Source: Oligoflexales bacterium
Lineage (GTDB): Bacteria; Bdellovibrionota_B; Oligoflexia; Oligoflexales; JALZUQ01
Direction of reading: 5' to 3'
DNA length: 64,000 bases
NCBI GenBank assembly: GCA_023301465.1
Contig: JALZUQ010000001.1
Span: 1-64,000, forward strand
The notes under the pieces are model-generated. The model did no database searches, had not been told where the DNA came from, and saw only the letters and a program-made list of their open reading frames with translations. A program made the translations under genes and the position numbers. Below, piece by piece: positions 33,989 to 39,677 of the stretch (the first letter of the stretch is position 1; each line of letters starts with the position of its first letter).

Positions 33989-34879
33989 ATGCAAGTCTCT
34001 CTAAAATTATCTCTACTGTTTATTTCTTTGAGTGCTTCTGTTCATGGAGTTGCCAAAGAACCCACGACATTTATCAGAATTGATGGAGATGATATTCGCT
34101 CTGCTCATATAGATGCAGAAATGAATAATTTAGAATCTCAACTGGAGGGTCTTGCTAAAAAAGAAAAGAGCAAAGCCTTAAGAGCACTTCGAAAAGAAGC
34201 CCTGAAACAAATCATTGAACGTAAAAGCATGGTAAACCATTTAAAACATTCTTCTAAAACTAAAAAAGATTTCATCTCTGAACTCAGCCAATGCGTAGCA
34301 ACAAACAAAAAAGCGAAGCTTGATCTTCAGCACCAAAGCCTAAAAAAATGTGAAGAAAAGTTTATACGCTCACATTTTCACCACCTAAAAATGCATAGTT
34401 TCATTATTACGGATGGAGACATCAGACGTAAATACGAAAAAAACAAAACCCTCTTTAAAACGCCAAAGAAAGTAATGATTCGTCATATTTTATTTGCAAC
34501 GTATGAACGAGCAAGATCCATCTACTACAAGCTAAAGCCCAGCAATTTTGAATCCTACGCAGAGATGTATTCTATTGCAGCAGAAGCAAACAGCGGTGGC
34601 TTAATGGGGCCGTTCGCAAAAGGTAGTGTTCCAGATGTGTTTAACCAATGCTTTGAATTGCCAACCAAGGGCATTAGCAAAATTATCCGCTCAGAGTATG
34701 GGTTTCATGTCTTTATGGTCATCAAGAAATATCCCGCCTCCCAACAAAGCTTAGAAGAAGTTTCATTTAAAATAGAAAACCAAATGCGTGACATCATGTC
34801 CGAAAAGGCTTACGAAGAAACACTCACCATTGCTATGAAGAGAGTTCAAAAAACAAGCAAGCCAACAACCTCAAAATAA
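33989..34879 (+). CDS. Parvulin-type peptidyl-prolyl cis-trans isomerase, secreted
   Basis: A 296-residue predicted periplasmic foldase. It has a signal peptide (about 1-22), a helical SurA-N-like region rich in Lys and Leu, and a C-terminal parvulin domain: VMIRHILFATYERA, a SGGLMGPFAKGSVP loop, and the YGFHVFMVIKK end. It starts on the base after the mfd stop. Another parvulin gene lies 3.8 kb downstream, with the HAD/A1-like pair between. Such proteins assist folding of outer-membrane or secreted proteins. Confidence 0.85.
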   Translation: MQVSLKLSLLFISLSASVHGVAKEPTTFIRIDGDDIRSAHIDAEMNNLESQLEGLAKKEKSKALRALRKEALKQIIERKSMVNHLKHSSKTKKDFISELSQCVATNKKAKLDLQHQSLKKCEEKFIRSHFHHLKMHSFIITDGDIRRKYEKNKTLFKTPKKVMIRHILFATYERARSIYYKLKPSNFESYAEMYSIAAEANSGGLMGPFAKGSVPDVFNQCFELPTKGISKIIRSEYGFHVFMVIKKYPASQQSLEEVSFKIENQMRDIMSEKAYEETLTIAMKRVQKTSKPTTSK

Positions 34880-34981
34880 ACACGTCGCATTTTTAGACTA
34901 AAGCATAATAAAATTTTACATTTTACCAAAAATTACCTAGCCTTAATTTGAAAACATCAATCATTTTAATTGGGGTGCTAT

Positions 34982-36205
34982 ATGCCAAAGGTATATTTGT
35001 TTGCGACACAAGCCTTACTAGTTGTGCTTTTTCCGGCTTTTCTATTTAATTCTGTTGCTCTTACAGCCCAAGAGTCCATTTCTATGATTTACACTGATTT
35101 TGATGAAACTTTTACAAACACCCACAGCCCAGAAGAACAAATTGGCGGGGAAATAGAGGGGGTTTACCAAACTTTTTACCGACTTTTTCGCGTCCAAAAA
35201 ACTGATCTTTTACCTCGTGACCCCTCATCAAAAGAAAAAGTTTTACTTGAAAGCTTGCCTCAACATGTCGATATTCCATTGGCCGAATATCGAAAGCTAC
35301 AAGAGTACTTTGCAAAGTCAGCCAACAATGCAGGAACTAGTTTTGAGCAATTTACCCTAAAAAGCGGTATCACTATTTACCCGAGCTTATACTACTTGGA
35401 TCATAACTTTTCTTATGAGCCTTTTCGAAGCAACTCAAGCACAAATAACCTTTTAGAAATCTATAAAAAAAGTGCCGCTGCCATGAGCGACTTAGACCCA
35501 AAAAAATACAGTATGTTCGGTATTGCGTACCCTATTGTTATCTTGAGCATGATCCCTAACCCTGTTAACCCTGAGGTACCTCTTATTCTCAGCAAAATTG
35601 AAACGGCTGGTGGGTTTGCAAAACATCATGTTCAGGAATTTTTTGCATACCTTGCGAAAACACATGGCATTAAAGACCACCACGAACCCCACTGGGACTC
35701 TTTAGCCCTCTCCGAACACAGCGAACTAAGTCACTATCAAATTCTTGCCGAAGAAAAATGGAATAAAATTAAAGAGGCTTTAGATGACTTAGAAAAAACC
35801 CCCATCGGAGCAGACGCCATTCAGAGAAGACATCCTTATGACCCATCTTTAAAGGCACGCCTTCACTACTTTGCTTTTGAAGAAGACAATCCAAGTGTCT
35901 ACAATCACCTTGTAGATATTATTCGTCGTAGTGTTGCCAATCAACAGTACAGAAATATCAAGGTTGGCTTAATGTGTAGTGCTACCAGAGAAGACTGGGA
36001 TAAGCTCATTAAACCAAGAAACGCCCTTGGGGGACTGTTTAGAAACACCATTTTCATACCTGATGGAACCACAAGAGAAATGACTAAAGAAGAGTTCCTT
36101 GGTGAACCCCTTGTTTACAAAGATACCAAGGATCAAAAACAATTTGAAAAAGAAATACAAAAAAAATTTAAACCTAGCTGTCAACTAGCATTTGGACTGG
36201 AGTAA
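34982..36205 (+). CDS. Secreted HAD-like phosphatase, partner of the A1-like protein
   Basis: A 407-residue protein I cannot assign to a named family. A signal peptide (about 1-29, cut near ALTA) is followed at once by IYTDFDETFTNT, the HAD motif I (Asp39-x-Asp41-x-Thr). A later LMCSAT could be motif II, with basic residues downstream, and FIPDGT near the end fits a motif IV region. ATG 34982 with GGGGTG upstream is preferred to an in-frame TTG four codons earlier. The next gene, an A1-like metallophosphoesterase, begins 3 bases after the stop, with its ribosome-binding site inside this gene. I infer a periplasmic or secreted phosphatase acting with that protein. Confidence 0.65.
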   Translation: MPKVYLFATQALLVVLFPAFLFNSVALTAQESISMIYTDFDETFTNTHSPEEQIGGEIEGVYQTFYRLFRVQKTDLLPRDPSSKEKVLLESLPQHVDIPLAEYRKLQEYFAKSANNAGTSFEQFTLKSGITIYPSLYYLDHNFSYEPFRSNSSTNNLLEIYKKSAAAMSDLDPKKYSMFGIAYPIVILSMIPNPVNPEVPLILSKIETAGGFAKHHVQEFFAYLAKTHGIKDHHEPHWDSLALSEHSELSHYQILAEEKWNKIKEALDDLEKTPIGADAIQRRHPYDPSLKARLHYFAFEEDNPSVYNHLVDIIRRSVANQQYRNIKVGLMCSATREDWDKLIKPRNALGGLFRNTIFIPDGTTREMTKEEFLGEPLVYKDTKDQKQFEKEIQKKFKPSCQLAFGLE

Positions 36206-36208
36206 GTC

Positions 36209-38632
36209 ATGAAACTATTTTTTGTATCTATCATATTTTTTATTAGTTTAAATTCTTCATCCGTCTTTTGTGACAACAATGATGATTTTATTCAAGCAAC
36301 CACAAAACAACAACAAGCCATTCTTGGAAACTCCATCATGGATTTCTTCAAAAAACAAAAAAGGCTACCAAATAGCCGAACAGAATTAGCAAAGTTCATC
36401 AAACTGAAACCAAAAACACTCACCAACACCTTCGATGACAACTATATAGCTGATGCTCTAGAATCTTTAGACAAAACACAACAAAAATCTTTTTTAGAAA
36501 ATATTAGCAAGTATTCCTTTTTAAGAATGAAAGAACAATGGGAAGAACCTTTTTCTGAAGTGTTTTTAACCGAAACCAAAATCTCCCAAGATCACCTAGA
36601 TCGGCTACTGGCAGGCGATACTCTAGAAGACTACCTCGACACTCACTTTAAAAAAGAATTCGAAGAAAAACGAAAACAAATCCTAACCAACTTTATTGCA
36701 CATATTAAACAACGAAGAGAATTCCCAGAACAACATGAGTTTTTCGGATGGTTTACAGATTTTCTGGCAGAAAAATACAAAAAAGCTTCTGAATTAGATG
36801 AAAAAACACTGAACAGCTTATTAAAAACACTGTTTAAAAATGACAACGAGCAAGAAATCTTTGAAGATTTTATTGCGTACTTCCATGAAAACTCTAACGG
36901 AGCTTACGTTATTAATAAGAAGTTTATTAACGAAGAAGCCACAAAGAACCTTCTAGAAGCAATGAAAAACTCTGATCGATACATCATTTCAAGCATCGGC
37001 GAGAAACTACCCTTCACTGAGAAAAGATTAAAAGCTTTAATGGCATATGCAAAAGCAAACAATGCTCAACTTTTTTTGGTCCCCCTTGAATACACTACCG
37101 GGCAATTTGATAATATTATCCACGAGCATGATTGGATTCACCTTGTGTTTGATCAAGTCTGGCCATCAAAGTATTGGAGAATTGCCGCCCTTAATGTCAT
37201 TCGCAAAATGATTAACCCTTTGGCTAGTGCTGATAAAATTGGGCCTAGACATGAAAGTATTATTGTTGGTGCACCTAAAATACAAGCTAAAACAGTCTCT
37301 ACCTCAGGAAATAAACATCGAAGCAAAACCCTGATCGCTACAGGTACTGTTGACGACGCAATCTATGCTTCACAAACCTACAGGATGCAAAGAACCGCTC
37401 TTATTGCAGAAGAAATGCATGAGCAAGGGGCTTTGATAATGGAGAAAGTATCTGACGTTGAGCCCGGCGACCGACTCATTCCCCACGGTGAGTTTGCCCA
37501 TAGATTTATTGAGTTTACACCCTCCCATATTGACCACCTTGGCGTTAAAGTTGAAGAGGGTTTCTATGACTTAGACAAACATTACTCGGTGAGTGGAAAT
37601 ATTACCGATGCTCAACCGTATGCTATCGCTCTTGCAGATACCCACTTCCCAGATATGACTGATTTACCGGGAATGACAGCAGCTATTGAGTTAATCATGA
37701 AACGTTTTCCAAATGTCAGACAACTCCATCTTCACGACTTTATCGAAGGCACTCCCTTTAATCATCATCAAGAAGGAAATTACCGTCAACGTGCAGGACT
37801 TCATGCCGCACAAAGAAGTATTGCTGAACAAATCAGGCAAGGGATTAAACTGATCAACTACTTCACGAGCAACCTACCAAATACTGTCATCAAAGTTGTA
37901 GAGTCAAACCATCCAGAATGGATAAACAGCTATATCAATCAAGGTAAGCACCTACGTGACCCTGAGAATCATGACATTGGTATTGATATTCACGCCTATT
38001 CCGTTCAAAACAAAGTAAGCCCACTAGAAGCTCTTTTGCTTTTAACACAAGATAAACTTTTTCGACGTCAGTACAATATATCTCCCATCACAAATATCGA
38101 AAAAGTTGTTTATGCCAAGGTAGGCGATCCTCACCAAACAGATACTGATATCCCAGTTATGACTGGAATGCATGGGCATAAGGGAGCTGGTGGAGCAAGA
38201 GGCTCAAAAGGCACAAAGGTGCGTGGGCTTGACCGTGGCGTTGGGGCACACGATCACACCTTCTGGAGAGAAGATGGGGTCATGTCTATTGGTGCTGGGT
38301 TTAGGACCGCGGATTATGCAAAAGGCGGCTTTTCAAACTGGCAAGGACCTGCTTTGGGACTTGTTTACCCAGACGGTGCGATTACTCACTTAATATCCGT
38401 TGGAAAAAAATACGAGTACGTTAGAGACCCTGATGCCCCCCCGTCTAATCCTAAGACTTTTTTCGCTGAGGGTTACCCAAAAGCTGAAGCTGTATACACT
38501 CTTAATAATGGCTACATTGCTCAAGACAGCTCTGATGCTTTTAATGGAAACGGCAAACTTGATGAGAATAACCCTCGTTATGCCCCAAAAAGCAGCACTG
38601 GGAAGAGCTGTGGCCCTGATTTATTTAGATAG
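36209..38632 (+). CDS. Secreted calcineurin-like metallophosphoesterase resembling phage T5 A1 protein
   Basis: An 807-residue protein with a signal peptide (about 1-21), a helical Lys/Glu-rich N-terminal region (22-250) and a C-terminal two-thirds that resembles phage T5 A1-type proteins, as I recall them. The recalled pattern covers RYIISSIGEKLPFTEKRLKAL, the SGNITDAQ..ALADTH strand and MHGHKGAGGARGS. The metal-site residues fit a metallophosphoesterase: Asp477-x-His479, Asp510 in HLHD, Asn567-His568 in ESNHPEW, His655/His657, and His681-x-His683. T5 A1 is needed for host DNA breakdown early in infection. Here a signal peptide would send it out of the cytoplasm. Nuclease activity is inference. 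GGAG lies in the preceding gene, 3 bases away. Confidence 0.6.
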   Translation: MKLFFVSIIFFISLNSSSVFCDNNDDFIQATTKQQQAILGNSIMDFFKKQKRLPNSRTELAKFIKLKPKTLTNTFDDNYIADALESLDKTQQKSFLENISKYSFLRMKEQWEEPFSEVFLTETKISQDHLDRLLAGDTLEDYLDTHFKKEFEEKRKQILTNFIAHIKQRREFPEQHEFFGWFTDFLAEKYKKASELDEKTLNSLLKTLFKNDNEQEIFEDFIAYFHENSNGAYVINKKFINEEATKNLLEAMKNSDRYIISSIGEKLPFTEKRLKALMAYAKANNAQLFLVPLEYTTGQFDNIIHEHDWIHLVFDQVWPSKYWRIAALNVIRKMINPLASADKIGPRHESIIVGAPKIQAKTVSTSGNKHRSKTLIATGTVDDAIYASQTYRMQRTALIAEEMHEQGALIMEKVSDVEPGDRLIPHGEFAHRFIEFTPSHIDHLGVKVEEGFYDLDKHYSVSGNITDAQPYAIALADTHFPDMTDLPGMTAAIELIMKRFPNVRQLHLHDFIEGTPFNHHQEGNYRQRAGLHAAQRSIAEQIRQGIKLINYFTSNLPNTVIKVVESNHPEWINSYINQGKHLRDPENHDIGIDIHAYSVQNKVSPLEALLLLTQDKLFRRQYNISPITNIEKVVYAKVGDPHQTDTDIPVMTGMHGHKGAGGARGSKGTKVRGLDRGVGAHDHTFWREDGVMSIGAGFRTADYAKGGFSNWQGPALGLVYPDGAITHLISVGKKYEYVRDPDAPPSNPKTFFAEGYPKAEAVYTLNNGYIAQDSSDAFNGNGKLDENNPRYAPKSSTGKSCGPDLFR

Positions 38633-38723: not shown

Positions 38724-39677
38724 ATGAAGTTATTTATATTTTTTACATGCAGTCTTTTATTTTCAACCACTCTTTTTGCAAAACGCACAAAGATCGACGG
38801 CATTGCCGCAATTGTTGAAGGTTCTCCCATCCTTTATTCTGACGTGGTTCAGAAGGTCCAAAAAGGTCCGTTAGTAGCTATTTCTGACTACCCTTCTCAA
38901 CCCACAGCTTCAGAAAGTGAACGAGCATTAAATGATTCCATTAACATGGAGCTCATTTTGAAAGTTATCGAACAAGACAACCTCGAAATTGACAACACCG
39001 AAGTAGAGACAGAAATTACAAAGTTTTTATCTGGGCAAGGCACTGACAAAGCAGGCCTCGTTAAATTTCTAAAACAGCAAGGGCGTACCTACGAGGGCTA
39101 TAAAGAAGATTTTGCAACACAGCTTTTGATGCGAAGGTTTCAGGGCAGATACATTATGCCCCTTGTAAAAATTACGAATGATGAACTAAAAGCCCACTAC
39201 AAAACACGCGGCTCAAGTGTAGGCGGGGCAACTAATGTAAAACTACACCATATTCTTTTTAAAGTTCAAACAGAGGCTGGCTTAAAGAAAGCACAGAAAA
39301 AAGCTATTCGAGTTTTGACTGAAATTAATAAGTCCGGTGATTTTTTTGCTGCTGTAAGAAAATACTCGCAAGACGAGTACTCAAGAAGTAAAAAAGGGTT
39401 TATGGGTGATTTTAAGGTCAAAGATTTACATCCCGCTATTAAGCAAGTCATTATGTCTTTAAATGAAAAACAACCTAGCCCACCTACTGTCTCCCCACTA
39501 GGGATGCATATATTCTATGTAGCTAGTAAAAAAGGCGGGAAAAAAGCCAGCTTTGAAGACTTAAAGCCTAGACTAGAAGCTGAACTTCGTTCGCTAGAAA
39601 TTACAAAACAGACACAACTCTGGCTTTTAGAGAAAAGAGCAAAAGCCAAAATTAAAATTGTAAAAAAATCTTCTTAG
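38724..39677 (+). CDS. SurA/PpiC-like peptidyl-prolyl cis-trans isomerase, periplasmic
   Basis: A 317-residue foldase. It has a signal peptide (1-19, ending LFA), a SurA-N-like helical domain opening with IDGIAAIVEGSPILYSDV, and one parvulin domain with VKLHHILFKVQTE, then KGFMGDF and SPLGMHIFYV. The two-domain layout matches SurA-like chaperones with a single parvulin unit. It lies 91 bases after the A1-like gene and could help fold its neighbours' products or outer-membrane proteins. It ends in a 4-base convergent overlap with the MBL hydrolase gene. The ribosome-binding site is weak. Confidence 0.87.
   Translation: MKLFIFFTCSLLFSTTLFAKRTKIDGIAAIVEGSPILYSDVVQKVQKGPLVAISDYPSQPTASESERALNDSINMELILKVIEQDNLEIDNTEVETEITKFLSGQGTDKAGLVKFLKQQGRTYEGYKEDFATQLLMRRFQGRYIMPLVKITNDELKAHYKTRGSSVGGATNVKLHHILFKVQTEAGLKKAQKKAIRVLTEINKSGDFFAAVRKYSQDEYSRSKKGFMGDFKVKDLHPAIKQVIMSLNEKQPSPPTVSPLGMHIFYVASKKGGKKASFEDLKPRLEAELRSLEITKQTQLWLLEKRAKAKIKIVKKSS

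Follow-up and report, generated by a model that had tools for sequence, protein, structure and literature searches.

A predicted secreted HAD-family protein paired with a homologue of phage T5 A1 in the Bdellovibrio lineage

The gene pair and the predicted export of its products

The first 64,000 nucleotides of contig JALZUQ010000001.1 from an Oligoflexales bacterium (assembly GCA_023301465.1; this whole stretch is referred to as the window) carry two adjacent genes on the forward strand, the first encoding a phosphatase-like protein of the HAD superfamily (henceforth the HAD) and the second a homologue of the phage T5 protein A1 (Table 1). The open reading frames bear out the adjacency and the gap of 3 bases that were given in a preliminary description of this DNA. 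For the HAD an alternative TTG start at 34970 is possible, and the ATG at 34982 has a GGGG Shine-Dalgarno-like stretch.

Export was scored as the best 12-residue Kyte-Doolittle (KD) mean with a reference value of 2.0, i.e. by a simple hydropathy score and not by SignalP. The reference value is reached by 22 of 25 HADs and by 24 of 27 A1-like proteins, the remaining three A1-like proteins lying at 1.89-1.99, and by none of the 15 phage A1 proteins in the aligned set. The scores thus support the signal peptides that had been claimed for both proteins, and likewise those of the homologs, and on the basis of these signal-peptide-like N-termini both proteins are predicted to be exported.

Table 1. 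Positions of the paired genes, their sub-features and the operon neighbours within the window
Feature	Position	Strand	Evidence
Secreted HAD-superfamily phosphatase-like protein, first gene of the pair	34982..36205	+	Open reading frame, 407 residues, ATG start
HAD predicted signal peptide, ~30 residues	34982..35071	+	Hydrophobic segment from residue 11, KD mean 2.83
HAD Cys400, proposed partner of A1-like Cys21	36179..36181	+	Cys in 25/25 aligned HADs
Secreted T5 A1-like metallophosphoesterase, second gene of the pair	36209..38632	+	Open reading frame, 807 residues; PHROG 1745; ligands; structure model
A1-like predicted signal peptide, ~20 residues	36209..36268	+	Hydrophobic stretch starting at residue 3, KD mean 2.91
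A1-like Cys21, directly past the signal peptide	36269..36271	+	Cys in 26/26 secreted A1-like proteins having the region
A1-like N-terminal helical region, residues 22-244, helix-turn-helix (HTH)-like repeats	36272..36940	+	hhalign against phage A1 N-termini
Core of the A1-like protein (residues 245-736) containing the metallophosphoesterase domain; ligands D477, H479, D510, N567, H568, H655, H681, H683	36941..38416	+
PpiC-type prolyl isomerase, upstream operon neighbour	33989..34879	+	Pfam Rotamase_2, E=5.2e-16
SurA-like chaperone, downstream operon neighbour	38724..39677	+	Pfam Rotamase, 8.2e-15, and SurA_N

Relationship to phage A1 and to HAD phosphatases

The resemblance to T5 A1, which had been put forward in the preliminary description, holds: the PHROG 1745 profile ('DNA transfer protein') matches residues 245-729 of the A1-like protein (E=1.2e-44) and a tblastn search with this protein gives matches in 1045 phage records. 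The candidate metal ligands listed in Table 1 are invariant across 15 aligned phage A1s and are kept by the secreted relatives, except that H681 is sometimes Asp; H657, the further ligand named in the preliminary description, was rejected, as this position varies (mostly His or Asp) in the phage as well as the secreted alignments. The protein contains the DxH, D, NH, H and HxH motifs of the calcineurin-like superfamily, a ligand pattern that it shares with Mre11/SbcD, LpxH and others, although it differs from them in motif II, usually HD in place of GD. In the structure model most blocks of the core (residues 245-730) have a predicted local distance difference test score (pLDDT) of 70-97. The best matches to the model are two phage proteins (E=1e-35 and 5e-29), one of which agrees in length with the aligned A1-like protein of an Ochrobactrum phage and is likely the same protein, followed by six predicted phage calcineurin-like phosphoesterases (probability 1.00, E 1e-6 to 9e-5), a modelled likeness to that superfamily. 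The Pfam Metallophos model does not match the window protein, and matches 2 of 28 relatives (PF00149, best E=9e-5).

The N-termini of the cellular group and of phage A1 align with an hhalign probability of 98% (E=2.8e-13), and judged by this profile comparison the HTH-like repeats of the two groups are homologous; Sigma70_r3-type HTH models match 9 of the 28 secreted relatives, none of them significantly in the window protein. The cellular and phage forms thus have in common a homologous core, identical metal ligands, the N-terminal repeats and, in the T5-type phages, a nearby HAD gene. The cellular form, at ~20-25% identity to the phage protein, differs in its predicted export and its chromosomal location; its N-terminal region is longer, it carries an additional invariant cysteine, and its HAD is a different one that is placed upstream. 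Because of its chromosomal operon and signal-peptide-like N-terminus the window protein is, on the sequence evidence, a homologue of A1 and not a phage A1 protein.

The HAD of the window matches nothing in Pfam, PHROG or NCBIfam. Nevertheless, it has HAD motifs I-IV in order (D39xD41xT43, T208, K259 and E301-D302), and these are kept across 25 relatives: D39, D41 and K259 are each present in 24 of 25, T208 as T/S and E301 as E/D in all 25. The preliminary description had drawn a parallel with the nucleotide phosphatase of T5, which stands insofar as the HAD-type deoxynucleoside 5'-monophosphatase Dmp is encoded close to A1 in T5-type phages and has HAD motifs; kinship of the two HADs beyond motif I did not hold up. 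Dmp is without a signal peptide, ~240 residues long and encoded on the other side of A1, and hhalign aligns only 17 columns around motif I (probability 8.8), on which ground we rejected the HAD as a cellular Dmp. The pair's HAD was not found around A1 in ~100 loci of phages and viruses, and a plasmid search with it gave no match. Phage A1 itself often lies near nucleotide-hydrolysing genes (L015:2850-3233, L016:2861-3544 and L018:3241-3957), for instance Dmp in the T5-type phages and an annotated phosphoribosyl-ATP pyrophosphohydrolase in a Flavobacterium phage.

Pairing, conserved cysteines and origin

A scan of GTDB genomes recovered the pair with its gene order intact, at 22-24% identity, in a Bdellovibrionales metagenome-assembled genome (L023), and the main survey covered 369 genomes from the phylum of that genome, as the tool defines phylum. 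A1-like matches occur in 31 of these, two of which (G113 and G227) lack a signal peptide and look phage-type, which leaves a secreted A1-like protein in 29 genomes (8%). The HAD family of the pair is present at 198 bits or more in 27 of the 29; the next HAD matches, at ~100 bits or less, belong to a separate, widespread paralogue. Both genes are thus present in 27 genomes, A1 only in two and the HAD only in none (Fisher p=6e-39, a value that overstates independence, since the genomes are related). At the level of genes, 28 of the 30 secreted A1-like genes (window counted) have the HAD as their immediate upstream neighbour, often with a 4-base overlap, so that the co-occurrence on which the preliminary description had wanted a check is borne out. 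Three of the 28 pairs (L172, L162 and L149) are split by a contig end with the neighbour seen on the adjoining fragment, and in L149 the C-terminus of the HAD, including its cysteine, precedes the A1-like gene. The distances among the HADs and those among the A1-like proteins correlate (r=0.86, a value reached in 0 of 5000 permutations), and no neighbour other than the HAD recurs in more than four loci.

Several further observations were made in these genomes. At L144:7052-8197 (- strand) the HAD is broken into two reading frames, by a frameshift or an assembly error. The two secreted A1-like genes that lack the HAD (L145 and L153) lie near what we take, by eye, to be squalene-hopene-cyclase-like and Mpl-like genes; the same holds for L146 and L147, where the HAD is present. 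On the contig of another A1-like gene we noted, again by eye, an apparently exported protein that resembles enzymes of the endonuclease/exonuclease/phosphatase (DNase I-like) family (L024:6586-7668, - strand). A1-like genes with neither signal peptide nor HAD neighbour (L175 and L176 in G038, L165 in G113, L170 in G227) are probably phage or prophage genes. The widespread HAD paralogue (~300 residues, motif FDWDDN or similar) is found in well over 100 of the 369 genomes (e.g. L207, L208, L209, L210, L211 and L212); it was rejected as a partner of A1, which it does not adjoin in the loci inspected, but the HAD of the pair may have arisen from it.

A cysteine lies 5-24 residues from the C-terminus in all 25 aligned HADs, and another right past the signal peptide in all 26 A1-like proteins that have the region (Cys400 and Cys21 in the window). 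Most mature HAD and A1-like proteins have no further cysteine, and searching the genome for the DsbA family gives hits that exceed the family's cut-off. This pattern suggests that the two residues may form a disulfide between the proteins. We disfavour Cys21 as a lipoprotein cysteine, given that no lipobox precedes it in the window protein and that in most relatives the cysteine lies some residues beyond the likely cleavage sites.

In the window the pair sits between ppiC and surA in an mfd-ppiC-surA operon, whereas in six relatives without the pair (G001, G006, G007, G008, G010 and G017) surA comes straight after ppiC, with mfd just upstream in five of the six. The pair therefore looks to have entered a conserved operon as one unit, and since the GC contents of its genes (0.395 and 0.398) differ little from that of the whole window (0.384), the insertion would be old or the donor similar. 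A careful tree separates 28 secreted forms (window included) from 30 phage-type forms with a branch support of 100/99. This tree leaves out two long prophage-type rows, and a quick tree that includes them gives 39% for the secreted group; the support thus depends on the choice of rows.

Proposed function and alternative explanations

T5 A1 is essential for the degradation of host DNA, after which Dmp degrades nucleotides further (PMC13250531), and A1 also has roles in second-step transfer and RNA polymerase binding (PMC13250531, PMC3556154). With a probability of about 0.5, we consider that the pair constitutes a secreted, probably disulfide-held two-enzyme module. Scattered over Bdellovibrio-lineage genomes, this module would cleave nucleic acid and then take phosphate off what is released. 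The exported A1-like protein would bind nucleic acid via its HTH-like repeats and, with an active site holding two metals, hydrolyse phosphodiester bonds, and the exported HAD, probably joined to it by a disulfide from its C-terminal to the A1-like N-terminal cysteine, would then strip phosphate from the products to yield nucleosides and phosphate for uptake; what is digested would probably be extracellular DNA, or DNA within a compartment of the prey or host. Nucleic acid is suggested as the substrate by analogy with the T5 A1 phenotype and by the HTH-like repeats. As an exported A1-like protein is out of reach of the cytoplasmic RNA polymerase and its metal site is intact, an enzymatic role of the core is to be favoured.

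Several results weigh against this reading. The profile and structure comparison suggested in the preliminary description gave matches to the A1 profile and to predicted phage calcineurin-like models, whereas Foldseek found nothing significant among solved structures (best LpxH, E=0.13), which makes a substrate other than nucleic acid possible. The AlphaFold2 model of the HAD, made on two sequences, had a pLDDT of 38 and was not used. The A1-like proteins of the two genomes with no detected HAD (G420 and G421) still keep the cysteine, so that this residue may serve homodimers or another partner rather than an exclusive bond with the HAD. With the module in only 29 of the 369 genomes, a role in predation is a tentative proposal. 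Beyond these, the secreted form was found in 1 of 58 genomes of the window's own phylum, i.e. in the window's own genome, and no secreted relative was found in 398 other genomes of the Pseudomonadota sample and 296 other genomes of the Bacteroidota sample (694 in total), where the profile picked up nothing beyond the phage-type seeds and some weak, partial matches.

The same mechanism could serve nutrient scavenging, the nuclease and phosphatase drawing on free DNA in the environment for nucleosides and phosphate, independently of prey. The molecular evidence is the same and the sporadic presence in 29 of 369 genomes suits an accessory trait, while no neighbour resembling a phosphate regulon recurs; nothing in the data separates scavenging from prey digestion, and we regard it as a tentative but real possibility. 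Digestion of prey would, by analogy, suit bacteria of this lineage: B. bacteriovorus uses secreted nucleases to digest the DNA of its prey (PMC7925074), and Bd0934 and Bd3507 are, like the pair, exported enzymes (predicted in the case of the pair) discussed in that connection, although neither is called an A1 homologue or HAD-paired where that source describes them (PMC7925074). Among the papers searched, none joins Bdellovibrionota, phage and the A1 protein. The more specific proposal, in which a cellular lineage of T5 A1, covalently linked to a dedicated HAD, is exported by Bdellovibrio-lineage bacteria to dismantle the nucleic acid of another cell into nucleosides, we consider rather doubtful.

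Other functions call for a different substrate or target. The A1-like protein might act on a phosphoester of the envelope (a lipid, a lipopolysaccharide precursor or a cell-wall intermediate), the HAD acting as another phosphatase and no nuclease being involved, in line with the non-significant fold match to LpxH as the best in the PDB and with the position of the window pair between two periplasmic protein-folding genes; given that the HTH-like N-terminal repeats are common to phage A1 and that the genomic context differs in nearly every genome, this seems improbable. Still less probable is a periplasmic barrier in which a phage-type DNA-destroying protein attacks the DNA of infecting phages on its way through the periplasm: phage kinship, export, the sporadic distribution and the apparent insertion as a unit would agree with it, but apart from the HAD there are no recurring neighbours of any kind, and the two proteins diverge together over large distances, which is not like recent exchange. 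That the pair is merely the remnant of an integrated phage is strongly disfavoured and hardly credible. Elsewhere the A1 family is known from phages, and phage-type A1 genes without a signal peptide do occur in some of the genomes (L165, L170, L175 and L176), but the window pair is flanked by mfd, ppiC and surA and by no phage genes, its HAD is absent from the ~100 loci of phages and viruses around A1, and the secreted forms make up one side of the 100/99 branch; locus context and tree led us to reject it.

The pair looks like an unrecognised two-part enzyme for the breakdown of extracellular nucleic acid. As a secreted cellular clade with intact metal ligands, away from RNA polymerase, it makes the enzyme reading of A1 directly testable on purified protein, and a simple structural prediction follows, namely that of a single inter-protein disulfide. 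For the Bdellovibrio lineage it would represent an exported protein family that the Pfam and NCBIfam models searched do not recognise.
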